Of a DNA stretch of 64,000 nucleotides, positions 210 to 58,725 are shown piece by piece. This stretch comes from Clavelina lepadiformis (lineage: Eukaryota; Chordata; Ascidiacea; Aplousobranchia; Clavelinidae). The notes below the pieces were generated by a model that was not told the origin of the DNA, did not search any database, and worked only from the letters and a program-made list of their open reading frames with translations. The stretch is from NCBI RefSeq assembly GCF_947623445.1, contig NC_135241.1, positions 24,430,501-24,494,500 of the forward strand. The letters run 5' to 3'. Made by a program: the position numbers and the translations under genes. The stretch's first letter is position 1. Each line of letters opens with the position of its first letter.

Positions 210-1331
210 CAAAGACATAACATAATTTTGCACGAGTATTTAAAATCAATTTTGCAGGTTTCTGTTTCATCAGTTTTGTGAACTGCTTTCCTTGCATGTT
301 GGACTTTGAGCAAGACAACATAATCTGCATTATCATATAGAACAAATAATAAGCAACGGAGGAGTAAAAGAGACTTGAATCACAAGTAATAAATTTTTGT
401 AATAAATACCAGTTTTCATGTGAAGTTTTGTTTTTCTGCAACAAAAAATGCATAAAATAATACGTTTGCCTTTTTGGATAATGGCTAACAAAATTTTTAA
501 TCACTATGCAGCTATTACCTAGATATTTTGTCCCCACATGACGGGTAAGTGTGTTTAAAAGTTCACAATACCAATTGGATTATCAAACGACGCATCATTT
601 GCACACCTACTTCATTTTTTTCTCACCTTAGGAGAACGAACGTTGCTACATTCTTCGTAAGTACCTCCAACATTTGCATACGATGAACTTTCTGCTGAAT
701 TCTCTGGTTTGGTGAACTTAACATTGGATCCTTCACTCAAGACAACATAACCTGCATTATCTGCATATCAAAGTGCACAAAAATTTAATTCCAAGCCTCG
801 TAACATTTCTAATAAACAGTGAATGTATGACAACATAATTCTCAAAAATAGAATTCCTGAAAGTGTCGAATAAAATAAACATATCACCAATATTTTTATA
901 ACAAATACCAGTTTTCAACTGTAGTCTTGAAGTCCTCTGCAACAAAAAATTTGTCTAAAATTGCAAGTAACCAAATGACCATTTTTTGTTAGAAGTTTTC
1001 ATGAAAATGATTAAATTTTAATTTAGTTCGTATTTGGCTTTATTCTTTCTCACCTGAGGAAAGGGAATGCCGCTACATTCTTCGTAAGTACCTCCAACAT
1101 TTGCGTACGATGAACTTTCTGCTGAATTCTCTGGTTTGGTGAACTTAACATTGAGTCCTTCACTCAAGACAGCATAACCTGCATATCAAAGTGCACAAAA
1201 ACATGCATCTTGCGTGTATATTTTTTTGGAATAATGAAAGGATAAATTGTTTATCCTGCGATTCAGTACCACACACATACCACATAAATTTTTGTAAAAA
1301 TACCTGTTTCCAGCTGAGAATCTTTAATTTT
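210..1331 (-). CDS. R1 distal tail: triplicated mini-exon plus tyrosine-exon cassette
   Basis: Three successive pairs of a mini-exon and a longer exon. Pair 1: 1331-1304 (28 nt) and 1178-1054 (125 nt). Pair 2: 936-909 (28 nt) and 760-627 (134 nt). Pair 3: 435-410 (26 nt) and 324-210 (115 nt). The long exons of pairs 1 and 2 are near-identical (YxVLSEG, SSSYANVGGTYEEC). Pair 3 is diverged, and its mini-exon has lost two bases; splicing it in would put a TGA at the next junction, while skipping it leaves the last exon open. The donor at 208-209 implies further exons to the left. Confidence 0.68.
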
Positions 1332-4300
1332 CTGTCACATTAAATATATTTAAAAATAGTGCAAATTTATAAATTTACAAGCCGCATTTCTTGTTTTTTA
1401 GCTAACTTGTATATATTTACCATGTGGCCAGAAGTGCCTACTCTCATATCAAGATATCCATTTGCATTATCTGCCAAGATTCAAAAACTTATTAACATAA
1501 CGTTGCGGATTTTGATGCCTCCATTTTGTGAAGAAAATAAAGTTTAAGCTTTTACTCAATGTCAGAGTAAGTAGATAATGACAAATATGTTTAACATAGA
1601 TGTATGCAAAATACCTGGATTGGGGCCAGCTGCTTTATGTTGTCTTTTGCTCTCAGCTTCCTGTTGTTGCAACTGTGTGAAGGAAGTAGTTCAAATCAAT
1701 AATAGATTACTGGTAACAAAATTTAATTGATTGAGGTTTCATATTAAACCTAAACGGTCATCGTTTATCTTCGAATATTTTTTGCCTTTGAACGAGATAG
1801 TGGTATAATTACACAATGTTGTTTTGGTAAAATTATTCCAATATGACTTAGCGAGCCATTGCTAATTGGTTGTAGGTTGACCAGAAAAGAACACTTTGCT
1901 AAATTGGCGTAGCATATCTAGCCAATTATGACTGATAAAGAAATTATAGTAAAAACAATATCCACAATAAGCAAAATTTGAGTTTTTATCTGTACAATTG
2001 TGATTCTTTGCACTTCATGGGAACACGTCTACAGTCTACCTTCTACAAAAAGAATAAACTCACCATACGAGAGATAACAGTGTGAAAAATTAAAATATGT
2101 CAATAATTTCAATTAATTTATCAAATTTTTGCAGTTTCCATTGTTTGAGCTATTTCGGATTAAATGAGCAGCCGCAGTTAACACTACTTAACGCAGTTAG
2201 TTAGAACACTTGTTAATGCTTGCAACAAGAATCTCATTTGAATCGGCTTACATGCTTATCAAAAATATTTCGCTTACTTGGTTGGAATCTTTTCCAGTGT
2301 ATTCGATGTAACTTGGCTGATCTGGAAAATAACCTTTGATTTAAGCAAATGTTAAATGACAGAAACGATTATGAGTGAGTGGGTGATGACACGTCATGCA
2401 AATTGCTTTTTGACCGTACTGCCACAAACCATAACTTTTCAATAAACACATAACACCTGGTATAGTCCAAATGAGTACTTACCTATAGGCGCTTGATCGT
2501 TTTTTGTGGTTTTACTTGCGGGTACATCTACAACAATTATGCATTGCGACAAAAGCATAATATATTACAGAATTACTATATGCGCTTACATGTTTTATAT
2601 TCTGTGCAATAACACAAAAGTTAGGCAACCATATCAAGTTGTACATTTGCACCAATGCATATAAAACCAATCAATATCGTATATCATAATGACTCACAAA
2701 GATTATAAGTCAATACAGAAGTAGTGTTAACACCGCATGCAACATAGTAACTTACCTTCCTTTGCCTTTCTTTGTACAATTACAAAAATCACAACACATA
2801 AGCAAATTGCAGCAACAACAGAGCCACCAATAATTACAGGTTGAAGCCAGACCAAAGGGTTGTCGGCAACTACAATGATGAAGTTAATTAAAGCATTATT
2901 GGGGAAAGAATCTTCATCTAAAGATCTAACAGTGAGTGTATATGTTCCTTTGTCTGAGATAGATGCCTGAAAGGTAAAAAAAGCTTCATCGAACTACATA
3001 AAACTTGTACAAAGATTTGATTTTGATATTTGGAACGTGTAGAATATTTTGGTTACTTTAGCTTTGTGGAAGGTGAAAGTTTGTTGATCACCACCAGATT
3101 GTAAGGTCGTTGACCCATCATGTGTCACTGGTAAATCTGGAAAATAGGGTGAAGTTATAAAATTGTAGGTTTTCGTTTTCGGTTCCAGAAATGTTTGAAA
3201 GCTGGGAATTAATGCAAAAATGTTGACATTTTATCAAAGACAAATTCCAATTCAACATGTTGGTGAAAGTATTTGGAAAACATTTTTAATAGTTATCACC
3301 AATAACCTGTTTAAAAATATAATTAGCCTGTGCCAAGTTATATAAAATTGTAGGTTTTCACGGTGAACTAACATTAATTTACGTAAAGTAAACAGACTAA
3401 AGCTAAAATAGATGCAAACATTTAAATTTTAGATATTTTTCAACGGCACTATTTCAGATGACTGATTGTGATATGTTTTCTAAAGGTAAAGGGGGATAGT
3501 AGAGAAATGATGAAAGCATTTTAAAAACATTTTCAGTAGTTGAAGAATTATCGCCAATAAAATTAAACAATAACAAGCAACACACCATTTTTGGTCAATG
3601 CTACAAAGTGAGACTTTGGATTTGAGAAGAACACAACAACACAGCTTCCACTTTCATTGATATTCCAATTGCAAGTGATAACTTCATGTTGTCGAGCAGC
3701 ATCTGGAAAATTTGTGTAATCATTTTTAATTGAATTCAAAATATAATAAAATGAAAACACGTTGCAATCAAAACTCACATATTCGCATTAGATATGATAA
3801 TAATTTCAATGTTTAAACTTGTCTCGTCGACTTTTATAATAGAAGCAAAACGAGTATTTTTAGCACTTTTTAAGTTACATAAAAATATAAAGTATCAAAA
3901 GCAAAACCATGCCTGCTATTAAACACTTCAAACTTACAAAGAACATCAAGATATATTGATGAGCTATAACTTCCAAAGCTGTCCTTCGTCGTGCAGAAAT
4001 AATATCCTGTATCAGAAGGCCCCAATAACAATTCAAACGATTTTCGAGTTTCGTGTCTTCTACCAGGACGTTTCAACAAAAATGTTGTATTAAGTCGATC
4101 GCTGTACTCAATGCTGCAGGAGAAGGTCACATTTTCTCCAAGATATGATGTGATGAATCCTCCTGTATTTGTGATGTTGCTGCCAGTCACTTTGAATTCA
4201 AGACTCCCTAAAAAAATAAAAAAAATGCTTGTCCACCAAATTACATTTCCTTGCATTTGCATAAAATAGTCGATTTTATCGATTGCAAACTAAAAAATCT

Positions 4301-7300
4301 TGCTCACTCTGTGCAGGAACCACAGTGACGGTTTGGCCGCTGCTTGGCTTGGAACCAGCTTCATTTTCAGCAGTGCAGTAAATTAAACTTGATTGGTCAA
4401 GATTATAACTTATATTGCAACCGGGGATTGAGATTTCTGAGTGCGAGTTCAGTGAAAAAATTGTCCAGGTGCAAGTTGGAGATGGATTTGCTTCACCATA
4501 TATGCACTGCATGGTGAGAATTTCATCTGATCTCAAAAGATATCCGTCTTCTGCAACTATTGTGTATTGAGAAAGCTCAACTTTGCTGGTAACTGTGTCT
4601 GGTGCGTCTGTAGAATAAGTTGTAATGTCACATTGTAAATTGCAATAACAAACAGCTTATAACTAGGAGACCAACTTAATCAGGATACATTCAGAGACAT
4701 TACTTAGTGCATTTCAGCAAGTTTAAGTGAACATTAGGCAAACATGAATACATTTGTATACTAGTGGTTGGTCCATGATAATTACGCAAACAATCATGAC
4801 GGGATAAAATTTGTTTTCTACATGCAAAATGCATCATAAGTAGTCGAATAAATAGTCAAAGCACTTGTACAAATAAATCGCAATAAAACATCTTTAGAAC
4901 GCAATATGAGCTGTAGGCACTCAACTTGTCTCAGAATTAACCTATCCACATGTTCATGCAAATGTTAATACTTGGCAAGATGACACAACCTTGTCAGTTG
5001 CGGCCGTTCAATAGAATGAAGCAACTCAGCAAGGTGCGCTTATGAGGTCACAAACGAACAGACAAATGACACAATAAAGGACATTAATGAAGAACAGTAT
5101 GAGTGGCATATTAGGACATTGAGACTGAAGAAGCGAGCCATTGCAGAGCAAACTAGAAAACCCTTTACAGTTCAGATGGTAACTGTGTTAAATCATTAAC
5201 ATGCTGTGTAACTGTTCTTTAAATAAGAATTTCCACTTTAAAATTTCTCCTGCGTATTGACAGCATGCATGATTGCACATTATTCCTAATGCACAGGAAA
5301 CACCTTTATTGTGAGGCCAATAAAATCCAAATAAAAGGAAGTATCATGGTTTGTGATTATGATGCTTTACTTTCTTTCATAAAATAAAACCATCTCAAAG
5401 TAAGTCGTTTTATCTAGTTAGCAGATAGCAAAAATATAATTCCAAGAAAACGTTAAATACTTACGAAGAACATCAAGATATATTAATGAGCTATAAGTTC
5501 CAAAGCTATCGTTGGTTGTGCAGGAATAATTCCCAGTATCAGAAGGCTTCAATGTCAAGTCAAAGGACTGCTTGTTATAGCGCCTTTCACCAGCACGTAA
5601 CTTGTACGTTGTATTAAGTTGATCACTAAAGCCAATGCTGCATGAAAAAGTAACAATTTCCCCAACATATGATGTCATTATCCCATCATCTTTTGTGACA
5701 TTCTTCCCAGTCACAATAAATTCAAGTTTTCCTAAAACCACAGACAAAGAAAACATGCCAGTCTGTCAAATTGTTCTGTCAAAGAAGTCCAAATAAATAA
5801 AAATATCTATAATGAAAACTAAAAATAAGAATATCTCAAATGTGTCAAAATCTCAGAGTTGACAGATACCGTGTTTGCATAGAGTAATTAATTAGGCAAT
5901 TCTAAAATTATCACTGCAAGATATTCTATTACTTACGTTTCTCTGGAACCACAGTGATGTTTAGTTCATTGCTTGAACTTGAACCAGCTCTGTTTAGAGC
6001 AATGCAAGAGACCACGCTTGATTGACTGAGATGGTAAGATATTTTGCAACCCTGGGTTGAACTGATTGGTTTAGATGTAACTGAAGGAAAATTCCAGGTA
6101 CAAGTTGGTGATGGATTGGCTTTACTGGGGTAACACATTATGGAAACTTTTTTATTTGATCTTAGAAGATATCCATCTTTAGTAGGGATTGTGTATCTGG
6201 AAAGCTTCACTTTCATGACAACTGTTTTAGGTTTATCTGTAAAAAAGTTGAGTTGCTGTAATCTCAATACAATATAAGATCAAATGATTTAGGTGATATT
6301 CTGTAAATTTGCTTGATGCATATCAGCAAGGAACAGAAACCATAAAAATCACGAAAATAAAAATGCAATAATCTAAACGCTTGTGTAAAAGTGAACATTT
6401 CCAATCCACTAAAACTAAATGTTTTAAAATGCAAAGTATTGTTTTGACCCAAAAAAGTTGTTTAACTATTTGAAAATAAAAAACAATGGAGAACTAAAGA
6501 AATAAAAATCAGCAAAATTTGTATTTGTTAATTTGATTCAGTTTTAATATTTCATTACACAGTTTGTTTAACAGACAAAGCATAAAAAGATCTCAGTTTG
6601 TACGCATTAGCCTGTGTTGGATAAACAAATACCAAGATTTATACACACTCCGAACAAACAAAACTAAAAATAAGCACAGTGACACTCCATGAACATACCA
6701 CAGTCATCTTTATATCATAATTAATAATACTCACATAAGACATCCAGTTCATATTCTGATGATCTTCCACTTGTAGGATAAAGATCAGTATAAGGAGTGA
6801 CAGCCTGACACGAGACTACTTTGTTGTTGTCACTTTGCAATGAAGACAATGTGAAAGCTCGTCCCTATGTTAGTGACGAGTATGAATAATGTTTAAAAAT
6901 AAGGGATCCAACAAATGTATGTAAAATACCTTTGCTTGATATTTTCTCGTTGGATATGCTAATACACATTCTTAAAAGTAACTCGCCTGTGTCTTAGTGT
7001 AGCCTTTTCCTCCCAAATAAAACTGAGAAGTATTTCCAACAGGAATGACATCATTGTAACTACAAGTCAGAATCAAATCATTTCCTTCAACCACAGTCAG
7101 TTTTCTGCCTTTAATTAAACTGCTTGCAAGGGTTACACTGGGAGCTGGATAAAAAAGTTAAATTTACAAAACTTTATTTTAGAAACTTTCTACTACCAGA
7201 AAATCATCAATGCATGTAAAGTAATTAAAACAGCCCATAATATATATAATAATACTGCCAACAAGTAGGAGAAAAAACATTAAACATTTCATACAATAAT

Positions 7301-10300
7301 TTAGTGATGCATGCATCTTATTTGCATGTTGTACAAAAATCATGCAAAGTACATGCAAATTATTTTCAGGAAAATGATTATCAGTCAGCAATTATCACGC
7401 GATTTCACAGCAATCACGCAATATCTATCACACAATTATTCATGTACAATAACAAAGCATAGCCTCATATCACAAAAAGTGCAAATAAAAAGTTAGTGTT
7501 AGATTAAAATAAAAGAAAACTTTCCTGTGATGTAAATTATACCGGCCTTAACAACGCCACTTCAGAGATAGACGTTTTTATAACCACTGGTCTCATCCAA
7601 CCATACTTTTAATTACCCGACAGAAAAATTCCTTAAAACAACCATCACACTTACAACAGGACCCAAACAAACTTTGTCATGAAACAAGTTAATGTTTTAC
7701 ACACCATGATAAGAGAGTAGAAGTAACGATTTAAATTTTAAACATATGTAGATATAAAACGTGTAAATTTTTACAAGATATCAGATGCTTGTACTTAGTT
7801 CAAGCTAATTATTGGATGTTTTGTTGTTAATGAACCGTATTGTAACAATGATAAACTAAAAAAATGAAAATAATTTAGTCCAAGCTATACAGTTAGAAAA
7901 TAATATATACTGTATTGCCTATGATGTCTTTGCACATATGACAAATTATTTTAAAATGCCAAAAAATAACAAAAATTGCTGCCAAATAACCTGTCCAACA
8001 TTGCAGATTATCCTGACCACTCCATTCTGAGGAAGCCAGACAAGTTGTGTCACTAGATGTCAACATTGCACCATTTGAGTAATACAACTTTCCTCCATTA
8101 GAACATGCAAACTTTCCTGGTGAGTTGAATATTCTGGAAATTGCATCCACTTTAACTCCATCTGATAGTGATTCGTGGCAATCTGTGTTGAATTAATTAT
8201 CCAGTTAACTATAACAAAAGGCCCATAATTATAATTGGTAACATTGCAGACATATTTTCCAATTGAACTACAGTGTTGACTTGTGTAAACCATGAAATAC
8301 AGCCAGTGCAAAAGGATGAATCAATTAAACACTACTAAACATACGATATCAACTTGAAAATTATGTAACTATAAATAAATTGGTACTATGACACTTTATC
8401 GAAAGACACTTTATCGAAAGACACTTTATCGAACGACAGCTGATCGAAACGACAGATGATCGAACGACTCTTTATCGAACGACAGTTAATCGAACCGACA
8501 GTTGATCGAACGACACTTTATCGAACCGACAGTTCAAGCAAGATTTTTGCGTGTTTCTCAAACATTGATCCTAAAGTTGACGATTTATATTTTATATCTA
8601 TATTTTAGATTTGTATCATAAAGTTGACGATTTCGCATGGCGGCCGGCCCGAAACATATTAATAAGTTATCACAAGAATACGGCCCGCCGTTTCTTATTG
8701 AGTTTCAAACTGCAGTGTTAGCTCTGTTTGAAAAAATTGTGGTATTGTTACGCCATAAAACTGGTGCGAAGGCGGTAGACCAGTATCTCGTACTAAGTAC
8801 GAGATTGTCTGTACAGTAGACTAGACTAGTCGTTATAGATACAAAGAGTAAGGAATTGAAGGCAAAATTTCATAGCAAGGGGCATATCGCTGCCTGACTT
8901 TTACACAAAGTAGCTTCTTGAAAGTGGTCTTTATCCCAGCTTTTTCAATTCTTGTTGTACAACGGTTCGAGGACTTCCTGGCCACGTTCAGTGACGACGA
9001 TGAGCAGCCATTGTCTGAATACATTGAATATTTCGAAACTACTTGGATTGGACGTTTGTGTCGCAGGAATCGTCGTCAACCTCTATTTCTTATCCGGTGT
9101 TGGAATGTCTTCCACCGGGTTCAAGATGACCTTTCACGAACGAATAATAGCATTGAAGGATGGCACAATGCGTTCAGCAAGCGTGTCTCAATATCCCATC
9201 CGACGCTTCGCAGACTCGTCAAAAAAATTAATCAGGAACAAGGTTCCAACGAAATGTTTATTGAGCAATTGAGTGCTGGAATTGCTGGCCCACCTCGGAA
9301 GAAGCGCTACGACGCTGTCAACCAACGGCTGAAGAGCATAGTCGAAAATTATGACTCAACGAATATTGACATAAAAAGTTATCTTCGAGCAATTGCACAC
9401 AACTTGTAATTAAATGAATGCGATTGAAATGTGCACTTCGTCAGTTGTCGTGCTTTTAACAGTGCATATCGTCAGTTGTTTCGATAAATTGTGGTTCTTT
9501 TAATAAATTGTCGTTCTTTTAACCGTGCATATCGTCAGTTGTTTCGATAAATTGTGGATCTTTTAACCCTATCCTAACCAGGCTCGCGAGTTTACTAGAA
9601 AACTATGCGTCGTAGACTGATGAGATTTTTACAGGTTAGTAAAAACATCATCTGGCTTCCTGTATACATCATAATTGTAAAACTAAAGAAGGTGAATTTA
9701 GTGTAAATTAGGTATTTCTAAAAGTGACACATTTCTAGAAATTCTTCTTGTTACGCCGTGCCCCCGCTGTGAGAAGAGAACGAAAGAGAATAGTTAGTCA
9801 AGTTATTGGTGCGTAAATGAGTAAACGAAAACGTTATGCTTCAATGCGGAGAAAGCAAAATTATATAAATATCACAATATCTCAAAAATTACAAAATCCA
9901 ACTTTATCAAACAAACATGGACAGATAGCTGAACAATTTTTATGAAAAGTCACCAAATTTCAATTTTCTACAGCAAACAATGCAACTGTACGCCACGTTT
10001 TGCTGTGACTGTGTGCGGGAGAAGCAACAGTCGATTCGATCAACTGTCACTTTGATCAGCTGTCGGTTCGATAAAGTGTCGTTTGATCAACTGTCGGTTC
10101 GATAAAGTGTCGTTCGATCAAGTGTCGTTTCGATCAGCTGTCGTTTCGATCAGCTGTCGTTCGATTAAGTGTCGTTCGATAAACTGTCGTTCGATTAAGT
10201 GTCGTTCGATCAGGTGTTCTAATACCAAAGATAAAAAACTAAATATTAAATCGGTTTTAAAACTATGATATAAATAGTTTACAAACACAAGCTAAAACTC

Positions 10301-13167: not shown

Positions 13168-14120
13168 AAAAGGAATTCCACTGAAACACATCAAAATTAA
13201 AAAAAAATTCATCCGTTGTTATCTCAGAAGCGTGTGAATGCGTCCCTGGTGTTGTATCTTGTTTTAGACAGGAAAGAAATCTGCATACAGCTTATTGTTG
13301 TCATTTTTAGTTTTTCGATTATTCTGTATTCAGACGGTTTTACTAACTTCTAACAACTAACTTGCAATTAACATAGTTGCCATACTTCATTACTTTGCCA
13401 TTGTTTATGAAACTTAAGTAAGTTTAAGTAAGTTTGAGTCCTTCTACATCAGAGAGATAACGCTGAATGAATGACACAAGACAGTATCACTTCCTTTGAG
13501 TAACTAAAGCAATTTGCAATTCATAAAGTTTTACTTCCTTATTCTCTTGATATGTGCTAAAAATAATCACTTTAATGTCATTATGTGAAACAGCTTTGAT
13601 TATTAACCACAATTTAATTAACTTAACCACCACATAGTAATAAACAGAAATCCAATATTTTGGTAGCAGCAGCATGTTCTTTATTATATTTATAAAATAA
13701 AATACAGGTATTATTTTAGCTACACGGCACAGATGCGAAAACCAAAAAGGTTTCATTTCAGGCCCAAAACTAGATTCGCTTTTACGTTATTACACCACTT
13801 TAACAATTCTTTGTGACTAAATGTTCCGAGATCAAAGCAAAAATAAGGTATAGTTGACAGATAAAAGTAGCATGGTATATCGACATTAATCAAACATCTA
13901 CAAAGAGATGGTAAAGTGTTTATTTAAATATTGTGACTAAGTTGAAATATAGGCCTACAGCAGATATATTGAAAAAAATTAATGCATTCATAATTATTTT
14001 TAAACTGTAGGTGACCGACCAATAGAAAATCAATAGTGTGTAAAATACAATACAGCTCCAAGTTCTGAGCAAACGTAAAACTGAGACAAAGATTTATTGC
14101 ATTACAAATTTATATGATAA
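13168..14120. other. Spacer upstream of R1
   Basis: About 950 bp of AT-rich sequence between the candidate R1 first exon and the 6.6-kb transposon, duplicated at about 36610-37560. It probably holds the R1 promoter, but I see no motif that marks one. The short minus-strand frame at 13487-13756 looks like chance. Confidence 0.4.
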
Positions 14121-14612
14121 CCCAGATAGCACGTCGCTCGAGGGCCGACGTCGAGCCGTTAGCTTGCTTTTGGCGGCCCACAAACGATAATCGCTGAAGG
14201 GCCAACTTCTTTTTGTCCAGCGGGCCTAGGTCGGGTAGGGAGCAACAAAATCTTTGTCGGACCTCGGTCGGCGCGTTAGCTACGATCTCCTACGAGCCGA
14301 CTTTGGGCCTACCAACAATCTCTAACACACAGGGTTTTTATGCAGTTCAGCAAAAAGTTTATTTTTTCAAATTTGAAAGTTCCCTTACCAGCAAACACAA
14401 TATTTTATTATAATCACTATCATCATCCGCTATCATCACTTGTAGAAGATGAGTCGAAATTCATGAAATACAATTGTCTGCGCGTGGCTTCATCTTTCCG
14501 CCCTTTATCTAAAACATTTTTGTAATGAAATATATTGCATAATGTTTGTTAACTATCTACAAAATTAAAAATGCGAAGTAAAACGTTCTGCAATACATGA
14601 TATGAACATCAC

Positions 14613-16358
14613 ACACGCATGCCACACAGCTTACCCAACTTGTTCTTCATTCTTTTTAGCCGTCCCCCTTCCCTATCACTAGCATTTTTTAACCATTTCT
14701 TGATCTCGCAGATACTCTCTGCTTCCTTAATACCCGATTTCTTGGCAGCATCTAGAGTATAATGACATAAAAACAAAATACTGGAGTAAACATCATCGAC
14801 AGATAATAGTAAATAACACTCACAATACATCTTAAAACAATTAAGAAGCGGTAAGCAACCTAAAAAATCAAAACATGACTAAGCAAAACCATCAACACTC
14901 AATTTCGACTTATTCACCTATAACAGTTTTTGCGAGTTGTGATGAATGCATTCCTGTCTTATGAGTATGACCCTTTCCCATCCAATTACAATTGGTTGCC
15001 AGTTCACAGGTCAACAATTTGCTCAACATCATGCTGATAACATCTTTTGCTGTTATGCCACCTATTGTTTCTAGATAGGAAATCTAAAAAAAATCCTGAT
15101 AAGAATCATTTGTTTGGCGGCATTATGTTACTGGTTACATGTCATGCTTTTACATGGAAGCATTATCAAAGTTGAAAAAATGTCAACATAGTCCCCCATA
15201 GCAATTAGATAAAAGAGATGAAAATACTCAATATTCGTATTATTATCAGTAACTTGCATATTAACCTACATGTTGCACTTACAAAAACACGCGCTTGTGA
15301 TTTCTCTGCTAGCAGTGATTCCACCCTATCAAAATCCTCAAATGAATCTATCGGCAAGTTGAAGTGTTCCACCGAAGAAGTGGACGGTATCTGCCCTTCC
15401 ACAAATTGGCGATGAAGAGACTGGAGCATTACACTGTTTTGTTTTACTTGTCCCCAAATTCTTTCAAGTAAGAGAATAGTAGATGGTCTCTCGCTGTTCA
15501 AATATTTGCGCAACATCACCAAGAGCTTGTGACACATGATAATTGGTAGCCCACCAAAGAGTTTTACAAAACCACTTTTACTTTACTCCTTTTTACATGC
15601 AATTATTCCGGGAAAATTTATTTAGTTCTGTACAACTTAAACTTACCGTTCTGTGGGCAATTGATGTGACGCACTTGCCTGTACATCAGTTTCTTGAGAA
15701 GTCACAGAACTGCAAAAAACATGAAGTGTGTATTGTTAGTATTAAATGCGACATTTAGTGAAATACGCATATTATAATGGTCTGATACGGGCACGACAAA
15801 TAAAGATTGCAGTTAGTACAGTACTGGAAATATTGCATGTCAAATTTGTTTACCTTGCAACTAAAATGGGTGTTGTAAAAGAAGTATTTGCACTGCCAAA
15901 ACAAAGAAATTGGTAGCATAGCTTATCACTTCTAAATTTTGAAGATAAAATACTTTCATTTTTTTACCTTAAACATTAATGTAAAGATTGGTAACTTTTA
16001 TATGTAGCCCATAACTATTTTAAAAAATTACATATTATTTATAATAACAGCAATATCGAGAATAATGTATACAGTACTTCCTCGATTATCCGGTCAAGTT
16101 GGGTCAATATTTTCAAAAATCTGACCGGATAAGCAAAAAAAACGGATAATTGAATTTGTATTTTTACCGAGCACGCACGCAAATCGCCGCCATGGGCCTG
16201 ACACCCGCTATGAGACGAAGCCTCGATCAGAAGGACGCGGGCGATCCGCGACGCGCGCAAGACGAATTCTTTACGCCACAATTCCGGAGCGCTCCAAAAG
16301 CGACCGGATTCGGCGATGGGCTCATCCCGCTTCACTCGCCGTTACTGAGGGAATCCTC

Positions 16359-16405
<47 letters not shown>

Positions 16406-17032
16406 AGTCTCGTCCGACCTCAGGCCGAAATGTAAGAGACGTCACACGTGCCGAGGATCGACGACGTTCGCGATCGATCGCGGCGACTTGGCGAAACGAG
16501 GACACCTCTTCGAGGTCGATCCGCCGCCGCCGCGCTCTACGATCGCGTGCCGGACCCTTGCTGACTTCGACGGGACGGCGGAGACACAGGTCTCCGTCCG
16601 ACTCCGCATTCGCCCGGGCGACGGGCGCGCCGGGATTGCTTTTCAGACGACCCTGAGGCGGGCGTGGTCCCGGGATTAACCCGAGGCCGCAATTCGCGTT
16701 CAGAACGTCGATGCTCAATGTGTCCTGCAATTCACACTAATTCACGCAGCTAGCTGCGTCCTTCATCGACTCGCGAGCCGAGTGATCCACCGCCAAGAGC
16801 CATCATCGTTTATCGTTTCAGCTTCTACGAAGCAGTCACAGGTTTGAATGTGAGCGCCGAGCGGACGATCTGACGACCGTCACTTGAAACCGCGGGGGTA
16901 CTCGACGCCCGTGAAAGACTTGTGCCTTGTCGAGCGCCTCAACGGGCGCGTCTTGACCTCGACAAGCGCGAGAGGCGGCCGGTTTCCCGGCGACGCCGCC
17001 GCAGCTCGAGCGGGAGCCTCCGTTCGTTTCGA

Positions 17033-17090
<58 letters not shown>

Positions 17091-18284: not shown

Positions 18285-18586
18285 TGTTAATAAATATTCC
18301 TAATTTCCTATGTTATAAAGAATCAACTTTGGTGAAAAACATGAAACATGACAAACTTGATTTGACAAGCACTTTTTTAATTCACCCACAAAAATTAAGA
18401 ATGGTTAATATACATCATTTAAGTTTTACGCAGAAATCAATCTTTCAGCTGACACCATAAGCTATATTTTTGGTCGTACATGCAAAATAGTTTTAAATAC
18501 TTAAACTATTATATCATCACGTGTCAAATACAAACCTAAATAGCTAATGAATATATATATAAGTTAATGAAAACATGCAAATAACA

Positions 18587-21428: not shown

Positions 21429-21434
21429 TTTATT
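21429..21434 (-). promoter_or_regulatory. Candidate poly(A) signal of R2
   Basis: AATAAA on the minus strand, about 23 nt after the R2 TAG. Position fits a cleavage signal, but the hexamer is common in AT-rich DNA. Confidence 0.4.
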
Positions 21435-21456
21435 GATTATTCTTTGGAAGCACAGT

Positions 21457-36521: not shown

Positions 36522-36609
36522 CATAAATTTCCTTCAGAAATATATTAACGCAACCAACGGATAGTACTAACTCTATCACCATTTGCATAACAGAACTTTT
36601 CATACTCAT
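36522..36609 (-). CDS. Copy of the candidate first exon, upstream of R2
   Basis: 88 nt, same length, frame, ATG and GTATGT donor as 13080-13167, with three amino-acid differences. Splicing to the R2 D1 exon at 29113 would be in phase but needs a 7.4-kb intron spanning the 4-kb transposon. It may be an alternative R2 start or a leftover. Confidence 0.4.
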
Positions 36610-38310: not shown

Positions 38311-38631
38311 CTACTTAAAACAAAGCTGGTTTATGTTTCCCACCTTGATATTGTTGGATCTTGAGGCACTGATAACTTCATCCGAACAACCTTCAACATT
38401 TTTGTACTTTTTAGAACTACTTGCAACATTTCCTTGGTTGTGAGGCTGCAAAGAGAGAAAATGGAAATATTTTTACTCTGTTCTGGTATCTGAGTTTGAT
38501 TATTATTAATTTCAAATAATTATTTTTGAAATCATTTTTCTCACTTGAGCATTAGCTTGTGGAGCACTGATGACATTTTGATAAGCACCTTCAATATTCT
38601 CATATTTTCTTGAACTACTTGCTACATTTCC
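38311..38631 (-). pseudogene. Orphan receptor tail exons
   Basis: 38631-38545 and 38445-38311 match the last two tail exons of R2 (KYENIEGAYQNVISAPQ, then KYKNVEGCSDEVISAS and the same ending NQLCFK plus TAG). Homology breaks off inside the first of them, and no upstream receptor exons follow before R3's own tail at 41958. They are the remains of a receptor gene lost from the array. Confidence 0.8.
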
Positions 38632-49625: not shown

Positions 49626-50655
49626 CGATATAAAAAATTTGCAAAAGAAGCAAATATAAAAACGTGGCTCCACCGAAACGATTACAAACTTAAGCTCGGT
49701 ATCTGGGGCTCGAGCGGTGAGCAATCATTCTTGAGTTAAGTCGCGCGTGAATAAAGATTTATTCAATATCATTTGAAATATATGAATTTTATTGTATTGG
49801 CTGTCCAAAGTTTTTAATAACCGTGGTGAAATTGTGATTAATATTTTCAGTGTTTACAATAAACTCATATGAGGGCCCAGAAAGAGGGAATCGTTGCACA
49901 TCTGGTGTTTCAGCGTCATGACGTCAACATGTCATCATGACTGGAATTTATGTGATGGTGCTTTTGTTTATTAGTATTCCAACAGTGATAAAATATTATT
50001 GAAAAGTGGCTTGATTGATGATATATTATAACTAATTACAATAATTAATTTCTTGTTACAGAAGTTGTGCATAATTTCTAATAAACAGAAAATACATCAG
50101 TAATAAAGTTACATGATATATGGAAAAGACCAGAATAAAGTCGCAAAAGGTCACAGAAAGTACCACAGTTAATACAACAATACAATGAATGCATGCTGTT
50201 AAACGAATGGCGTTATTTGAACGACATCGTTTCGATAAAAGTGTGCAACAATATGAAAAAGAAGGTGTGTTGGATATGTAGAACAAGTAAAAAGAATGGG
50301 TTGATTAAAAAGTATCCAAAAACACTCGCTATCAAAGGCTGGCTTCAACCTAAACCGCCACAGGTTTTCTTTAATCGAATTGTTCATTGCTAAAAAACAA
50401 ACAAGTAAAACCACTACGTATTGGTGAGAACAAAAGGCAGCATAATATAAAAGTAGACTCGACAATAAATATAATTAAGATACATACATTAGTGCAAATT
50501 TATGAAAGAAATTATGTTATTCTTACACACCTGTACGTCTTGACGTACATCAAACGTCATGATGTTCAATATTTTCATATGGTTTTGATTCATTCCGTGG
50601 TTGACCATTGTGAAACTAAACGCAATTAAAAATATAGTTTTTACGACAGTTTTCA

Positions 50656-50661
50656 TTTATT
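50656..50661 (-). promoter_or_regulatory. Candidate poly(A) signal of R4
   Basis: AATAAA on the minus strand about 9 nt after the R4 stop. Close for a poly(A) signal but plausible in a compact gene. Confidence 0.35.
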
Positions 50662-50669
50662 TTTTTGTT

Positions 50670-51874
50670 CTAGAAACTCAATTTATCCAGCCTCACTTCT
50701 GTATGAGGATGTGGAGCAGTGATGACATCATCATAAGCACCATCGATATTCTCATATCTTTTGGAACTACTTGATTCATTTCCTTGATTGTTCGACTCAG
50801 CATCGTGTCTTCCATTCAAGACAACGTAACCTGCATTGTCTGTATATTAAATTGCACAATTGAGTAGACCTTGGCAAATTACTTACAATCTGTATTAATG
50901 TAAACATGTATTATTCAAGTGAAAACTGAACATTTGTGCCACTGTATTGTAATTGCATTAAATCTAACACGTCTAAAATATTAACATGATAATATACCAG
51001 TTTCCGGTTGAAAATTCGACGTTTCCTTTGTCTGAAAAATTAAAATCAACGTAATTTCAAAGCAGTGCAGCTACGTGTAATATAAAATGAAGTAATTGAC
51101 TTATTACCACGTCACCAGATGTGTTTCCATTAACAACAAGATATCCATTGTCATCTGCAAAATTATGAAAACAGAGTTCAGATCATAAGTCATTTATTCA
51201 CGAACCAAAACTCAATAACCAAAACGGATTTTAACCTCATTAATTTACGACAAGTTACCATTCAGCTTACAATTAAAAACTTCCTTTTGCTTTTCACTAG
51301 ATCAGAAGCCGCGAGAGCAATTTTTGCATGTAAGGTTTACAAGGTAATTTGGCCCACAGAAAAAAAAGCTTTATTTGATTCAATTAAAATCAAAAGTGTT
51401 CATCAAATTTTCATATTTTGATTCACGTTAGTATCACTGATTGATATGAGTACTGGTCTATTACGTCAGAATTAGCCTTATCATGTAACTTATTTTGACC
51501 ACAAGTAAACTGCTACTATTTTGTATTGTGTTTTAATTGTGAAGGTTGCAACAGTGCAGTAGCTATAATTGAATTGGTTAAATATACACATATTAAATAG
51601 TCTTGAGTTTTATTAAGTTTGACCACTTACATGAGTACTTTTAAAAAAACAAAAGATTTACTATCACTTAAAACTATTCAATCAAAGCAAATACATAAAG
51701 TTACCTTGAGCTGGACCAACTACTTCATAATGGCTTTGGTTATGAGAGTTCATCTGTTGTAAAAATCAATTTAAAAACGGTTTTAAGTTCACAGCAGATA
51801 GGTTGTAATAAATTAAACTCATTTCCATACTTGGGTAGAATCATTTCCAACAACTTCAATGTAAGCAGGTTGAT
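50670..51874 (-). CDS. R4 cytoplasmic tail with five tyrosine motifs
   Basis: Exon 51874-51831: PAYIEVVG. Exon 51753-51705: SHYEVVGP. Exon 51154-51108: NGYLVVNG. Exon 51031-50998: TKETSNFQPET, no tyrosine. Exon 50839-50670: AGYVVLNG, then RYENIDGAYDDVI and stop TAG. The YxxV/L motifs resemble ITIM or SH2-binding sites. The last pair has YxxI and YxxV only three residues apart, closer than a standard ITAM. Confidence 0.85.
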
Positions 51875-54800
51875 CTGGAAAAATAAAGAATGGTTTTTGT
51901 CAACAAAATAAACTAAGATACCAATATTTTGGCATTGTTATTATTTTAAAATAACAGGATTGAAAACTCGGGTAAAATACTAACAACACTAATATCGCAA
52001 CGTTAACACTAGAAGGACGGCAATTTTCGTATACCTAGAAGGACGGAGTGCGTCAATTGACGCAAAAGGTCAAAACGGCGCAAATCTAACGTTTTTTGTT
52101 GAGAAAACTGTGCTGTTGCTCCGAAAAAACTACTTCTATCGCATGTCCGCTTTGTGCATTTTAATTAACAAAAACAATCGCATTGAAAATACAAGCACTC
52201 GTGCCTAAACACTTCTGTTTCACGCAACTCCTTTTTCTTCTTGCACTCTTCCGGGACTTCTCTCCTGTTCTGGCGCATTGTCCCTACGAGGCTGCACTTC
52301 TTTTCCGCAAGTCGCAACGCCAGGTCAAGTGAGGTGAAAAAATTATCGCAAGTGACGTTGTAACCTCCTTGAAAAAGCGGAGCCATGAGTTTCAGTACAA
52401 CGTCGGTGGGCACACTCACGTGGGGGCTCCTTGCGTCATCTTTTCCAACGTAAGGAAAACCGTTGAATAAATATTTGTTTTCAACGTCAACTGCCAGCCA
52501 GAACTTTAGACCAAACTTGTCTGGTTTATTGGCCATATATTGGATGAACTTGCAGCGTGCCTTACACGGCAATAGTTGCTCATCCACAGTTATCTTCCAC
52601 TGTGGAATGAATGCTTTTTGGCAGTTTGATATAAAACTGTTCCAAAGTTGTTAAGTGAGTGCAAATTTATCATGCAATAGATTCCTACGCCTTTCCGTCT
52701 TCAGATCGAAGCGAAGGAATCGTATATGAGCTCCAGAAACCTGTCTCTTGCCATGGTTTGGGAAAACATCGGACATCCCCACGACTTCCCCCACAAACTC
52801 TTCACAGGGAAGTTGTGCCCTCCTATCACGCCACGAGCAACCACCAAGCCGACGAATTTATCTAATTCATCTAATTTATCTAACTAAGAAACTCTTACTA
52901 CACTTACGCTTCGATAAACTTCAAAAATTCCGAAATTAGGCTGCGCTTGTGACGAAACTTCTCTGTTTTGCGGAAAAGTCGACTTGCATAGTTTGTCGAC
53001 ACGTTTGTCACACCTCTGTGTTGGCAGCTGTGACCTAATTCGATAAACCTGTAATTATCAGCAGAAAGAAAACGATGCTCTCTATCGCGAGAACTGGTTT
53101 TTGTACTGTGAAGTAACAATGCGTCAATTGACGCACCCCGTCCTTCTAGGTAGTGACCACGTTAATTATCTCTACCGGTAAAATAAAAACTTCATATTCA
53201 TGGGTTAGTTACCTAACACTAATGTGGGAAAAGTCAGGAAATATCACGGTTTTGCGATGCACCACTTAAAAGTTATAGATGCACTTAGGTTGAAAATGCG
53301 TCAATTGACGCGCCCCGTCCTTCTAGTGTTAATTTATTTTTGAAATTCATTAAAAGTGATACTTTTCTACAATAACTTGTAAAAACTAGTTAAAAATTAA
53401 TCAATGTCAGTTATTGTTTTACTATTTTATATCTTTATTTATATTATATATCTTTATATTTATTATGTTTATATACTTTATAAATATATATACTGTATAT
53501 ACTTTATATTTTATTTTACCATTTTATTTATTAATTTTCTTTGCTGGTTATTATATTTTTACGAACATGCCAAACAATTAATTTAGTATTCACCCAGTGG
53601 TATTTGGTTGTGATGTTCATTTGTATAAATAGACCCACCTGCAATAATGTGACAACAAGAGAAGTAAAACCACAAGATTTACAACAGTTAGACATTAAAC
53701 AGCGCTCACAAATAATTAAAATAAATTTTCAATTTTTATTTAACACAAGACACAAACTTTCACGATTAACGATGTCATCAGGAAAGTTTAGATTATAAAT
53801 GAAACTGATTTACTTTCATTTTCCATCTTAGTTCCTCTTCTCCATCTAAATACTGCATAAGCTGCGACACTTATAAAGATGATGGCAACACCGCAACTGA
53901 TGCCAATGATTGCTCCTATGGAGAGTCCAGGAGTAGGAGGAGGTTCATCAGCAACTATGATGTGGAAGATGATTTGGACATTATGATGAAAAATATACTT
54001 GTTTGAAGATTGCACAGTGAGTGTGTATGTTCCATTGTCTGAGCTGGTCACCTGCAGGAAAAAAGTGCACGAATTAAGGATAGATGGAGAATTAAAGATA
54101 GAAGGCAAATAGCAACCAATAACATTTCCATCCATATTCTGAATAAGTCTTGGACTCTGCCAAAACTCAAATAAATTACCTCATTTTTCTGAAATTCAAA
54201 CGTTTGTTCATCTCCATTAGATTTTATTGTCATCATCCCATCAGTCGTCACTGGTTGGTCTAAGCAACAACAAATTAGCAATGATTTAAACAGCTGGAAT
54301 TAAAAATAAAAAATTGCTATCATGAGTTATGATTATCTACACGAATGTAACAGAAATTCAAAGTTCTGAAAATTAAAAACTTGTAGCAGAAATTGCTAAA
54401 ATTTATAAATCTCTCGACTGCTCTATGCAAACCATTGTTGGTCAATGACACAAACTGAGAACTTGGATTTGAGTAAAACACAACAGAACAACTTGTACCA
54501 CTTTGTCCAACATACCAACCATTACAATCATCACTGGTGGTAACATCATCTTCTTGTGGAGCATCTGGAAGGAATCAATTTATAAATCATTTTGGTTTTT
54601 AAAACCATAGTTTTATTACCACCAGCACTGTTATGCAACAAAGCAACTATTTAAACATCAACAATTGAAACATTGTAAAAATTATAATAAAGTTATGGTC
54701 ACAAACTCCAGAATCATTTTTACATGGATTGCACTTAATTATATCAAAAGTATGTTTTATATGTATTGCATACAAACTTACATATAACATTTAAGTAAAT

Positions 54801-57800
54801 AGCTGCATTGAAGCTTCCAAATTGATCATTTGTGCTGCAGATATAATCTCCAGAGTCATCACGTGTTAAAGAGGAAAATAACTTTGAAGACTGAGATATC
54901 ATTGAGTTGTTTGGTAGTTTTATGAGGTATGTGGTGTTCAGTTCATTTTCATATGAAACACTGCAAGAGATCATGATGCTTTCTCCAAGATAAGTAGTTG
55001 AGTTGATGCTGCCGTCATTTGTAACATTGCTGCCAGTGACATTGAACTGAACTTGTCCTGGAAAAACATTAACAAATTTTCATGCGATTCAACAATTCAA
55101 ATTTTTGTGTTCAAAAATTAACTCACTCTCAGCAGGAACCACATTAACAGTTTGCTCTGCACTTGTGACATTGCCAACTATGTTTTCAGCAGCACAAGTG
55201 ACATTGCTTGATGCATTAAGATCAACAGTGATAAGACAACCACCATCTGAGGTGAGTGTCTGGCATCTTGAATCTGAGCACAGTTGCCAGCTACAAGTTG
55301 CTGGTGGGTTTGCATCACTTGGAGTGCAATTCATTGTGAGTTGTCGATCTGATCTTAGCAGGTAGTTGCTTTCTGATGCTTCAATCACAAACTGAGATGT
55401 TTCTATCTTGTTTATCACTGATGATGAGATATCTGTTCAAAATAGATATGCCATAGAGATAGAAGAAGTTGCAAAAAAACTCTACATATGAAACTTTGTC
55501 ACATCAAAGTTGGTTCATTACTTGCTAACAACTTCAATTTACAATTTATTTGACTAACAATTACGATTAATTAATTACAATTCAATTTAGGAAATCCCGA
55601 AGCTTCCCCAAGGATTTTTTTCTAAAATGCGTTTGACGAAATAAATACCGACACAAAAACGAACAAATTTTGCAACAAAATGTCCAAGGTGTGTAAACTC
55701 AAATTTAATTTAAAATTTAATTTAAAATTAGTTAAAACACTTACAAAATACATCCAGTGTATATTCTGATGATCTTGCACTTGCAGGATAGAGATCAGTA
55801 TAAGGTGTAATAGCCTGACAAGAGACTATTTTATTGTTATCACTTCTTTGTATAGGAGACAATATGAATGGTAATCCCTTTGAAAGTAAACACAAATATG
55901 CAAAACTGCATTGATGCCAAAGTGTTTCAAAAAAAAAAGAAATTTATTTTAATAAAAGAACGTATTAAACAGCAGTTATGTTTCTCTCAACTTTAAACCT
56001 TGATAGCAATGTCTAAGCTCTAGCTTCAAACCTAGATAGACTTAAGCTCCAGACCCATCGCAATTACATATGCACAGCTTAGCCAAAGCTGGAAGTGTAA
56101 ATATTGAGTGGAAACAGATAGTTACCAATAAACAAACATTTAATAACATGAAATAACCTGAGTCCTGGTGAAGTTATCCTCCCAACAAAAATTTGTTAAC
56201 TGTCTCCAGCTGTGAAGTTTTAACTTACCTGTGTCCTAGTGTAGCTATTTCTTCCAATATAGAATCGAGAAGTATCTCCAGCAGGAATGACATCATCGTA
56301 ATTACAAGTCAGAGTCAAATCATTTCCTTCAACCACAGTCAGTTTATTGCCATCAATTGAACTGCTTGCGAGGGTTACATTGGTTGCTGTGTGAAATGTA
56401 GTGTTAATTAAAGCAACATAGATTCAGAAAAGCAAAAACACAAGCAAAGTATGTTGAATAGTTCAGGTAAACACATTTGTCATTCAGGTAAACACCAGCT
56501 TGACCTAACTCAACTGAAACTAAAAAACCGTAAATTTAATGCGCATGAATTCGACTGAAGTTCACCTTACCAACTACCGACTTACATAACTAAATCATGG
56601 AGTTGAAACTAGCTAATTACCAAATAGCATATATACATACATTGCTGCAATTAATCTATATGTTACGCACAGTAACTTTGTAGCTCACAGAAAACAACAA
56701 AAATTGCAAATTGTACTAAAATAAAAATTTGGCCACACTTTGTGGCCAAGGATTTTCCATTATTATCAGTTAGCAGTTGCAAACCTGTCCAACATTGCAG
56801 ATTATCCTGACCAATCCATTCTGCTGATGCCAGACAAGTAGTGTCACTAGATGTCAGCATTGTGCCATTTGAATAAAACAAGTCTCCTCCGTTAGAACAA
56901 GCAAACTTTCCTGGTGAGTTGAATATTCTGGAAGTTGCATTCACAATAACATCATATGGAAGTGAGGAGCTGCATTCTGTGTTGTGTGCAGAACAGAACA
57001 TGTGTGAGGTGCCAGGTCTATTGATCCTACTCGCAATCAACCAGAAACAAATTTACAATTATTTATTGTTGAATGTTTTCTTATTCGTTCTAGCCTCTTT
57101 AAAAATTGGTTACAACAGAAGAATTTTAAGGAAAATATTGATAAAGGCCAGCTAACGACATCTCAATAAATAATAAAAACAGCTTCGAAAGCAAATAGAT
57201 TAACAAGTTTTGAAAAGTATTCAAGAAAAAATGCCCGCACTAAGTATCACAAGTTTGCTAAGTCACAGCACATTCTCTGTTGCAAGCTCTCTCTTGGTTC
57301 AAGGTGGAATTTGGCACAGTGCATGAACTATGAGTTTAACATTCTTTATACAATGTAAATAACCCATTTTGTACATCTCATTTGGCAACAAAAGCAAAAT
57401 TTAGCTATGGTTAGGGGTGTTATTATTTAAAATACTCATTTGTATTTAATTCTGTTTAATGAAATGTTCCTTTATAATTCAACAAATCTTCACGTGGTTA
57501 ATGGTTTATTTCACAAATCGAGCTTGTCAGACACAATATATCTTAAGGAAATAATGTATACGCCAATAACTAGATCAAGAACAAAAAAATTCTTAAGAAA
57601 AAAATAATGAAGCCATTTATGAATCCCTCAGACCTTTACAGAATCCTCAGATAGATAGTTACAATAATTAACCAATGAAGTAAACTCATGCATTTATAAT
57701 TAATCGACAATAACTCTATTTCAATAACAAAAGGTGCTCAGCTGGTGAATAAATTCTCGTATGAACCAACTTTTAGCAAACCCATGTGGGTCTGCTTCGT

Positions 57801-58725
57801 CAGGGCAGATTACAATAAGAGAATCTCTGCCCTGACGAAGCTCCCACAGACCCACATGGGTTTGCTAAAAGTTGGTTCATACGAGAATTTATCCACCAGC
57901 TAAGCACCTTTTATTATTGAAATTATGATAACTCTATTTGTTAGTTCCTAGTAAATAACCAACACGTTTCACAGATTTTTGCATGAATAAACAAATATGC
58001 TGTTTCATTTTGTTTCTTTACAGTAAACCCATGAATGCCATCTAAATATAAATACATTTATGTGAGTAAATTAATGATACATGCAAATGTTTATACTAAT
58101 GATACATGCTTACCTTGCACTGTTCTATTGATAGGACCTGGTGTGTTGGTAGCAACAATGCATCTAACTTCGATATTTATATCCCTAGCAACAAGTGGTT
58201 GAGTGATTGTCAGTGTTGTTATTGTGTGATTTGTTCCATCAATTGTTTGTTCAGTGCAAGTGATGCTGTCATATGTGCCTGGTGATGAAACAACACATCC
58301 ACCAAATATTCCTGAATAAAACTGAGCACCACTTCCACTGTCCAGCTCTCCTCCATAGAACCAAAAACATGCATCAGTATTTGATGTTGGTGTTGGAAAC
58401 TGAGCAGTTACGATAAGATTGTTGAAACCGGTTGCCAGTGGATTATACGGAGGATCAGTGCTGATTGTTGCTGATACGTCTGCAAAAAAATAGAATTAAA
58501 ATATAATTTTAAGGTTAGAATTAAAATTAGAATAGAATTAAAATTGATTTACAAAATTGAAATTTTTTGATTTCCAAACATGGCTTTAGACAAACTTCAT
58601 TTATGACTTAATTTTAGCTGCAGGTTACTTAAGTTTCCCAACAAGAGTTGTGCTATCTCTTGTATTAATAATGATATAATACCTGTTATTGTCATTAGAA
58701 CTCCTAACAAAAAACCAATGCTCAT
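50670..58725 (-). CDS. Receptor R4: complete Ig/CCP membrane receptor
   Basis: Exons in transcript order: 58725-58683 (signal peptide MSIGFLLGVLMTITG), 58479-58114 (D1), 56976-56785 (CCP), 56386-56229 and 55877-55745 (split Ig), 55432-55127 and 55057-54782 (Ig pair), 54564-54433, 54259-54180, 54051-53814 (membrane-proximal and helix), tail 51874-51831, 51753-51705, 51154-51108, 51031-50998, 50839-50670. Joined: 756 codons, no internal stop, all canonical splice sites. It is the clearest full-length member and has the most intact tail. A piggyBac remnant lies in the intron between helix and tail, and a hairpin element in the intron between D1 and CCP. Predicted surface receptor with phosphotyrosine signalling; ligand unknown. 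Confidence 0.92.
52007..53328 (-). mobile_element. piggyBac element remnant
   Basis: Flanked by TTAA (52003-52006 and 53329-53332). Terminal inverted repeats are CACTAGAAGGACGG. Subterminal copies of CCTAGAAGGACGG and the palindrome GCGTCAATTGACGC lie inside both ends. It carries a partial piggyBac transposase. Intact ends and TTAA duplications suggest a fairly recent insertion into the R4 intron between helix and tail. Confidence 0.95.
52165..52650 (-). pseudogene. piggyBac transposase, partial
   Basis: An open frame from just after a TAA near 52650 encodes LWNSFISNCQKAFIPQWKIT, then VDEQLLPCKARCKFIQYMAN, FWLAVDVENKYL, GYNVTCDNFFTSLDLALRLA and SLVGTMRQNRREVP. These are central DDE-domain blocks of piggyBac transposases (DDE_Tnp_1_7 family). 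The N-terminal third and the C-terminal part are missing, so it cannot be functional. Confidence 0.88.
53404..53530. repeat. AT-rich low-complexity run
   Basis: TATATT/TTTATAT-type sequence in the R4 intron next to the piggyBac remnant. The plus-strand frame here is spurious. Confidence 0.8.
53814..55432 (-). CDS. R4 Ig pair, membrane-proximal segment and helix
   Basis: Exon 55432-55127: LTMNCTPSDANPPATCSW, NVTCAAEN. Exon 55057-54782: IMISCSVSYENELNTTY, DSGDYICSTNDQFG. Exon 54564-54433: DDCNGWYVGQSGTSCSVVF. Exon 54259-54180: GDEQTFEFQKNE. Exon 54051-53814: SSDNGTYTLTVQSS, ADEPPPTPG linker, helix GAIIGISCGVAIIFISVAAY, then RWRRGTK. Read-through of the donor at 53813 reaches a TAA at 53788, a possible tail-less form. 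Confidence 0.88.
56785..56976 (-). CDS. R4 CCP/sushi domain exon
   Basis: 192-nt exon: SSLPYDVIVNATSRIFNSPG, FACSNGGDL, SSDTTCLASAEW, LQCW. One CCP module. Confidence 0.92.
57719..57922. mobile_element. Near-perfect hairpin (foldback) element
   Basis: Two arms of about 90 bp are almost exact reverse complements: TTTCAATAACAAAAGGTGCT to TCGTCAGGGCAGA on the left, and TCTGCCCTGACGA to AGCACCTTTTATTATTGAAA on the right. A spacer of about 16 bp separates them. The right arm has six extra bases near 57841. A 12-bp direct repeat ATAACTCTATTT flanks it (57710-57721 and 57928-57939). It lies in the R4 intron between D1 and CCP. Confidence 0.88.
58114..58479 (-). CDS. R4 D1: cysteine-containing N-terminal Ig-like domain
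   Basis: One 366-nt exon, close to R3's. Motifs: ISTDPPYNPLATGFNNLIVT, SNTDACFWFYGGELDSG, GTYDSITCTEQT, NIEVRCIVATNTPG. Differences from R3 cluster in the middle (after GGELDSG and around FGGCVVSS), as expected for an exposed variable face. Confidence 0.82.

Follow-up and report, generated by a model that had tools for sequence, protein, structure and literature searches.

The closest described counterpart of the genes treated here is the family of fester co-receptors (FcoR) of Botryllus schlosseri. According to the available part of the description, an FcoR protein starts with a signal sequence, followed by a V-type immunoglobulin (Ig) domain, a sushi domain, two C2-type Ig domains, a transmembrane (TM) segment and a tail that carries immunoreceptor tyrosine-based inhibitory motifs (ITIM), hemi-immunoreceptor tyrosine-based activation motifs (hemITAM) or YxxI/L/V motifs (PMC12065747). 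The same source gives 53 loci, which are clustered and encode proteins of 520-610 amino acids (aa); these loci form pairs with fester genes and have HECT genes in their vicinity. The analysis of a window of 64,000 nucleotides on chromosome 2 (C2:24,430,501-24,494,500) of Clavelina lepadiformis, a colonial aplousobranch ascidian, has now shown that four tandem receptor genes, R1 to R4, form the edge of a far larger cluster that extends over C2 24.43-26.26 Mb and that is probably FcoR-like, both in what it looks like and in how it would work.

The original prediction for this window was a set of four tandem receptors with Ig and complement control protein (CCP) domains, built on one shared plan with a single helix and lying on one strand next to INTS7. 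The four genes are real: CCP, Ig-type, TM and tail exons follow one another in order, all of them on the minus strand, and INTS7 adjoins R1. The tandem arrangement of Ig and CCP domains with signalling tails holds throughout, whereas an identical plan in all four genes does not. R2 lacks the membrane-proximal IgD, R3 lacks IgB and IgC, R4 carries the IgB-IgC pair twice, and the first domain (D1) of R3 and R4 is of a different form, spread over three exons, from the single-exon D1 of R1. The most complete model is that of R1, whose 17 exons (58725 to 50550) join into one open frame from ATG to stop that encodes 783 aa; all its introns are GT-AG and all phases match. The protein consists, in this order, of a signal peptide, D1, CCP, IgA, IgB, IgC, IgD, one helix and a tail of 154 aa:

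62740-63288, minus strand: INTS7, the flank of the cluster and not part of a receptor
58683-58725, minus strand: R1 signal-peptide exon, with the ATG at 58725; the top-scoring hydrophobic start of the stretch, with fitting phase
58114-58479, minus strand: R1 D1 exon, of the single-exon type (D1V), with four conserved Cys; putative V-type by position
56785-56976, minus strand: R1 CCP (sushi-like) exon
56229-56386, minus strand: R1 IgA exon 1, Ig-like by form and weak in Pfam
55745-55877, minus strand: R1 IgA exon 2
55127-55432, minus strand: R1 IgB, whose profile matches solved Ig structures, of C2/I type
54782-55057, minus strand: R1 IgC, an Ig domain above the cut-off of Pfam ig
53814-54564, minus strand: R1 IgD and TM helix (exons 54564-54433, 54259-54180 and 54051-53814, the helix in the last)
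50550-53638, minus strand: R1 tail in seven exons, t0 (53638-53594), t1 (51874-51831), t2 (51753-51705), t3 (51154-51108), t3b (51031-50998), t4 (50839-50697) and t5 (50615-50550), which carries the stop

The joined R1 protein scored above the Pfam cut-offs for V-set, Ig_3, ig, Ig_2 and I-set, with the best stretches over IgC and IgD: V-set reached 35.8 bits (cut-off 26), best over IgD, and ig 34.7 bits (cut-off 21.8), over IgC. IgB lies below the Pfam cut-off and is recognised as Ig through its match to solved structures, contactins being the best, and IgA, once its exons are joined, is matched weakly by Pfam in R1 (E 0.037) and has no match in R2, so that it is Ig by form only. The single helix was borne out, as R1 contains one hydrophobic stretch apart from the signal peptide. 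R2 is open from ATG to stop as well, over 13 exons (47877 to 41958) that encode 656 aa, with GT-AG introns and matching phases. The intron 3′ of the R1 D1 exon holds an inverted repeat (57718-57923, about 86% over 213 bases).

The extent of the family became apparent when the R1 and R3 exons were compared with a genome made up of 95 contigs that total 209,060,895 bases, which represents one haplotype and in which all exon-match counts are lower bounds; an alternate haplotype has also been deposited, according to the available part of its report (PMC10884593). The R1 CCP exon matched 72 places at E <= 0.01 (75 candidates scored), 67 of them on C2 at 24.43-26.26 Mb, including the four of the window, four at C2:20.39-20.41 Mb and one on chromosome 1 (C1). 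D1V matched 52 places, 48 of which are on C2, and the matches of the R3-type D1 (19 places), the TM exon (32) and IgC (46) are all on C2. Grouping these matches by order and strand, lone exons excluded, gives about 51 genes, a number that is our own reading because it is based on exon matches and not on gene models. At least three ectodomain plans can be distinguished. Plan A is D1-CCP-Ig-TM, many of its genes having t4; in plan B the D1-CCP unit is mostly repeated two to four times; and plan C combines CCP and Ig, in most cases with an R3-type D1. One class B gene inspected at exon level carries the D1-CCP unit three times, together with a single TM exon and tail-like stretches with YIEF, YEDI, YLKV and YETI. 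Among class C genes the t4 probe matched none and the TM probe one, and the single gene inspected contains both a TM stretch and GYLAV. Along the 37 ordered minus-strand genes at 25.30-26.01 Mb, a class A gene is followed by a class B gene nine times against 4.46 expected, and 145 of 100000 shuffles reach nine; these counts are dependent because of block duplication, and the class calls come from exon matches (one A is doubtful, two B have a single D1-CCP and one B has D1 between two CCP). Within the same region, 15 match pairs, aligned by hand, lie 120.7-122.2 kb apart (25.60-25.64 versus 25.72-25.77 Mb), two other pairings having been discarded as wrong, and a 3.26-kb stretch of this 121-kb repeat is 98.8% identical. 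An uncollapsed haplotype in the assembly could mimic such a repeat.

The tyrosine-motif tails that had been predicted are equally clear. Seven of the eight tyrosines in the R1 tail lie in YxxI/L/V motifs (YIEV, YEVV, YLVV, YVVL, YENI, YDDV and YENI); shuffled tails contain a mean of 1.03 and none of 200000 attains seven. Six of the seven R1 tail exons (t1, t2, t3, t3b, t4 and t5) recur in order in a paralogue about 1 Mb away (C2:25.454-25.464 Mb), whose exons t1 to t4 carry YIDV, YEAV, YLAV, YIVL, YENI and YDDV and whose last exon carries YENV and YDEI. Exon t4 matched 22 places at E <= 0.1, R1 included, all of them on C2; 14 others are 69-81% identical and free of stops. Between R1 and the paralogue, the ratio of nonsynonymous to synonymous substitution rates (dN/dS) is 0.14 in the t4 core (34 codons), where the constraint on the tail is clear, and 0.57 over 81 codons when t1, t2, t3 and t4 are pooled. 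In its wide sense, the ITIM admits a serine at position -2, a form that SHYEVV of R1 fits. No canonical immunoreceptor tyrosine-based activation motif was seen by eye in the R1 tail. In the available part of PMC11484026, the ITIM is printed as I/V/LxYxxI/V/L and the hemITAM as DEDGYxxL, which DDNGYLVV of R1 matches in part only. Sequences of the GYLxV form also occur in the paralogue, as DENGYLAV, and in one gene each of class B (GNDGYLKV) and class C (RDGYLAV); the counterpart in R4 is GYLDM.

The N-terminal modules combine fixed and variable positions. In the nine D1V copies that were read, out of the 48 places on C2, C37, C61, C74, C106 and W39 are invariant. Leaving aside the distant ninth copy, the variation among the other eight is concentrated in three stretches between invariant ones, with a pN/pS of 0.90 in columns 27-66 and 0.35 elsewhere, the columns having been picked after viewing the alignment. 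The place of D1 in the protein and the form of its last strands suggest a V-type domain, a fold that is therefore putative. In the CCP exons of R1 to R4, four Cys and one Trp follow the order of a sushi domain, and the exons of R2, R3 and R4 are 72%, 84% and 78% identical to that of R1; Pfam Sushi matched two of 12 members, the best at E 0.0077, below the Pfam cut-off.

Set against FcoR, as far as the available part of PMC12065747 describes it, R1 and R2 agree in the order of parts and in the kinds of tail motif, and both Botryllus and Clavelina have many clustered loci. The signal sequence is present in R1 and R2, and a scan for hydrophobic starts found no signal exon for R3 or R4, the best candidate for R3 being dropped as it sits in a repeat and the best ones for R4 as they lie in far-off stretches. 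The single TM segment with a long YxxI/L/V tail is present in R1. The place of the first FcoR domain is occupied in Clavelina by D1, which has no Ig match in profile searches, and the place of the sushi domain by the CCP exon, with its sushi-order Cys and Trp and its sub-cut-off Pfam score. The differences from FcoR lie in length (520-610 aa versus 783 in R1 and 656 in R2), in the number of Ig domains, two of C2 type there versus three Ig-type domains in R2 and four in R1 (R3 being without IgB and IgC), and in the repeated D1-CCP unit of one Clavelina plan. A HECT ligase gene for each pair, as a neighbour of the FcoR kind, was rejected, since the 68 HECT matches include just two places inside the cluster or close to it (C2:24.81 and 26.38 Mb). 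Proteins of the Fester family, again from the available text, have an Ig domain and then a sushi domain at the N-terminus and their genes lie next to a longer receptor gene, an arrangement with a possible likeness in this cluster; they differ in having three TM segments and a short tail. No such partner (Ig, sushi, three TM segments) was found in the places inspected, and an identification of the adjacent class B genes with fester is unsupported, as the one inspected has a single TM exon and tail-like tyrosine stretches. Because length and HECT neighbourhood differ, no fester partner was found and the comparison was made by description only, the Clavelina genes are not filed as FcoR. The original prediction knew of no described family with this architecture. 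FcoR, with nearly the same order, takes away that part of the claim; apparently without earlier description are the occurrence of this kind of cluster in an aplousobranch, how large it is, and the plan in which D1-CCP is repeated. The literature searched, which covered neither preprints nor most subscription papers and was available in part, contained no report of such genes in Clavelina.

Taken together, the open multi-exon frames of R1 and R2 with signal peptide, Ig domains, helix and tyrosine tail, and the recurrence in order of six tail exons in the paralogue together with the constraint on t4, support the view that these genes encode type I cell-surface receptors of a germline family that has been amplified in tandem. 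D1-CCP would be the variable and presumably ligand-binding part, and the Ig domains behind it would act as a spacer of varying length from the membrane. The tail tyrosines, including those of the one ITIM-like (SHYEVV) and one hemITAM-like (DDNGYLVV) motif of R1, would be substrates of a Src-type kinase and, once phosphorylated, docking sites for SH2 proteins. As a whole, the cluster would then most probably sum activating and inhibitory inputs for self/non-self recognition, microbial or allogeneic, as has been proposed for FcoR in Botryllus. Expression and its tissue, the ligand of D1, phosphorylation and function are all parts of this proposal that we infer from the DNA. The cluster of about 50 genes, the 121-kb repeat, the pattern of D1V variation and the FcoR-like order support recognition, and some role in self/non-self or microbial recognition appears rather likely. 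A role in allorecognition is a plausible hypothesis, to be held tentatively.

Several results weigh against this proposal. D1 has no match in Pfam or NCBIfam, its best match in the PDB has an E of 0.46 (a nanobody), and its profile does not match the IgB, IgC or CCP profiles of the cluster itself. In the paralogue at C2:25.454-25.464 Mb, neither t0 nor a signal exon was found in the stretch compared, and SHYEVV is not kept (RNYEAV). The dN/dS values of t1 (1.41), t2 (1.84) and t3 (1.93) exceed one with one synonymous difference each, and for this reason constraint is not established for the tail outside t4. The values for D1V (0.27) and CCP (0.50) are low, and there is therefore no sign of diversifying selection in this pair. 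Finally, allorecognition has not been studied in Clavelinidae, according to the available part of PMC7344649.

Much the same gene structures could belong to innate blood-cell receptors for microbes or altered self, comparable to the LILR, FCRL and teleost LITR clusters and without any role in colony recognition. Large birth-and-death clusters are usual for innate receptors, and FCRL5 and CD22 are among the many proteins matched by the profiles of IgB and IgC, FCRL5 without any single stretch passing alone. Mammalian FCRL, CD22 and LILR resemble the Clavelina genes in their Ig chains with tyrosine-motif tails and in being, in many cases, clustered; they differ in having another first domain and are not known to have a CCP, and the LILR, FCRL and LITR families are not known to have one behind the first domain. 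With an order of parts that is that of FcoR, as far as the latter is described in the available text, a purely innate role is possible but doubtful. The allorecognition candidates of Hydractinia, the Alr genes, offer a further likeness in being clustered and in having ITIM-type motifs, according to the available part of their description. Their plan is not known to include a sushi domain. Ascidians also have known systems of self-incompatibility (PMC7344649, in its available part), and the cluster might encode receptors for gamete self-incompatibility or other self-markers; some 50 genes with signalling tails seem more than this would need, which makes it an improbable reading.

Contactins as the best matches of IgB would suggest Ig-superfamily molecules of adhesion or neural recognition. 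Such families seldom form megaclusters of this kind, and CCP domains combined with tyrosine-motif tails point to immune-type receptors and not to adhesion, so this identity is very improbable. Finally, most of the copies could be decaying, with few functional genes among them: R4 has a GC donor and a 5′ exon that could not be placed, R3 a second copy of its first D1 exon without a donor, and the map contains several lone exons as well as repeats and pieces of ribosomal DNA (rDNA). The frames of R1 and R2, open from ATG to stop, and the stop-free t4 exons elsewhere speak against general decay, to which we give a small chance.

Returning to a recognition family of the FcoR type, such a system may date back to a shared ancestor of Stolidobranchia and Aplousobranchia, which predates the origin of coloniality in either, and may have been kept or re-amplified in Clavelina to about 50 receptors with modular D1-CCP repeats; this scenario is speculative and less likely than not. 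If it is true, allorecognition in both orders would rest on one ancestral receptor kit and not on separate inventions. The FcoR-like megacluster puts the age of the receptor type within direct reach of a test, and it makes Clavelina a second species for studying how self is told apart from non-self by germline receptors whose tails carry ITIM- and hemITAM-like motifs.

The remaining exons of the window, all on the minus strand, are the following:

47877-47829, 47680-47318 and 46890-46699, minus strand: R2 signal peptide, D1 and CCP, the 5′ part of the ectodomain
45616-45456 and 45302-45173, 44791-44486, 44310-44035, minus strand: R2 IgA (two exons), IgB and IgC
43910-43785, minus strand: R2 TM
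43564-43520, 43218-43175, 43065-43011, 42324-42182 and 42038-41958, minus strand: R2 tail
38515-38643, minus strand: t4-like exon 3′ of R2, sharing 97% identity over 33 aa with its counterpart in R3, in the R2/R3 duplicated segment
23762-29113, minus strand: R3, open over nine exons with no stop codon interrupting
29113-28959, 28372-28293 and 28053-27920, minus strand: R3 D1 exons
27286-27095, minus strand: R3 CCP
26354-26197 and 25732-25600, minus strand: R3 IgA
25293-25162, 24393-24314 and 23999-23762, minus strand: R3 IgD and TM
21675-21878, minus strand: R3 open stretch with t4-like tail exon (YVVM, YENI, YQNV)
1054-11821, minus strand: R4, open without a stop over the joined exons from the second D1 exon (11553) to t3 (1421)
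near 11821-11684, 11553-11462 and 11255-11122, minus strand: R4 D1 exons, the first open in its own frame and with no placeable acceptor
8182-7991, minus strand: R4 CCP
7144-6987 and 6864-6735, minus strand: R4 IgA, with GC instead of GT as the donor after the first exon
6236-5937 and 5731-5465, 4607-4308 and 4207-3938, minus strand: R4 IgB-IgC, twice
3702-3586, 3136-3057 and 2966-2756, minus strand: R4 IgD and TM
2527-2483, 2321-2278, 1672-1615 and 1470-1421, minus strand: R4 tail exons, with a further one at 1178-1054 outside the join
615-767, minus strand: t4-like tail exon of R4, second copy (YVVL, YANV)

The second copy of the first D1 exon of R3 (28867-28766) is 61% identical to it and has no GT donor at the usual place. 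Between R2 and R3 there is a segmental duplication (12145-14120 and 20706-21778 versus 35423-38633) that is 92-98% identical and extends into the t4-like tail exons. One of its copies is split by a 6.6-kb stretch (14121-20705) with rDNA and a transposon-like frame: a displaced rRNA piece on the minus strand (16067-17203) comprises the 3′ end of the small-subunit rRNA, the 5.8S rRNA and the 5′ part of the large-subunit rRNA, and the frame at 18590-19663 (minus) has a DUF4218 match below the cut-off. Another transposon-like frame, at 52165-52650 (minus), matches DDE_Tnp_1_7 at E 1.8e-34, and three more on the plus strand (31528-34469) have no Pfam match at E 0.01.

Outside the window, a weak t4-like match (42%) on the minus strand at C2:24397874 lies to the left, past R4, where the receptor family may continue. 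Within the cluster, three diverged D1-like exons (41-47% identical) on the minus strand, at C2:24825674, 24924194 and 24957183, stand head to head, at 2.5-9.2 kb, with plus-strand receptor genes at 24828232, 24931687 and 24966422; they are possible partner or secreted genes. The first of them, which is followed by a cysteine-rich stretch, was considered as a fester-like partner of the plus-strand gene at 24.826 Mb and rejected, as neither a sushi domain nor a clear gene model was seen. A neighbouring duplicated block at C2:24.572-24.584 and 24.610-24.622 Mb contains a frame that, by its look, may be fibrinogen-like, and long frames in two copies. Relatives of CCP or D1 outside the cluster are found at C2:20.39-20.41, C1:25.50-25.52 and 24.65, and C4:23.45-23.47 Mb, and other dense clusters of ordinary sushi domains lie on C8 (17.8-18.9 Mb), C1 (19.2 and 7.8-8.0 Mb), C3 and C5, among the 150 matches scored of 1412 candidates.

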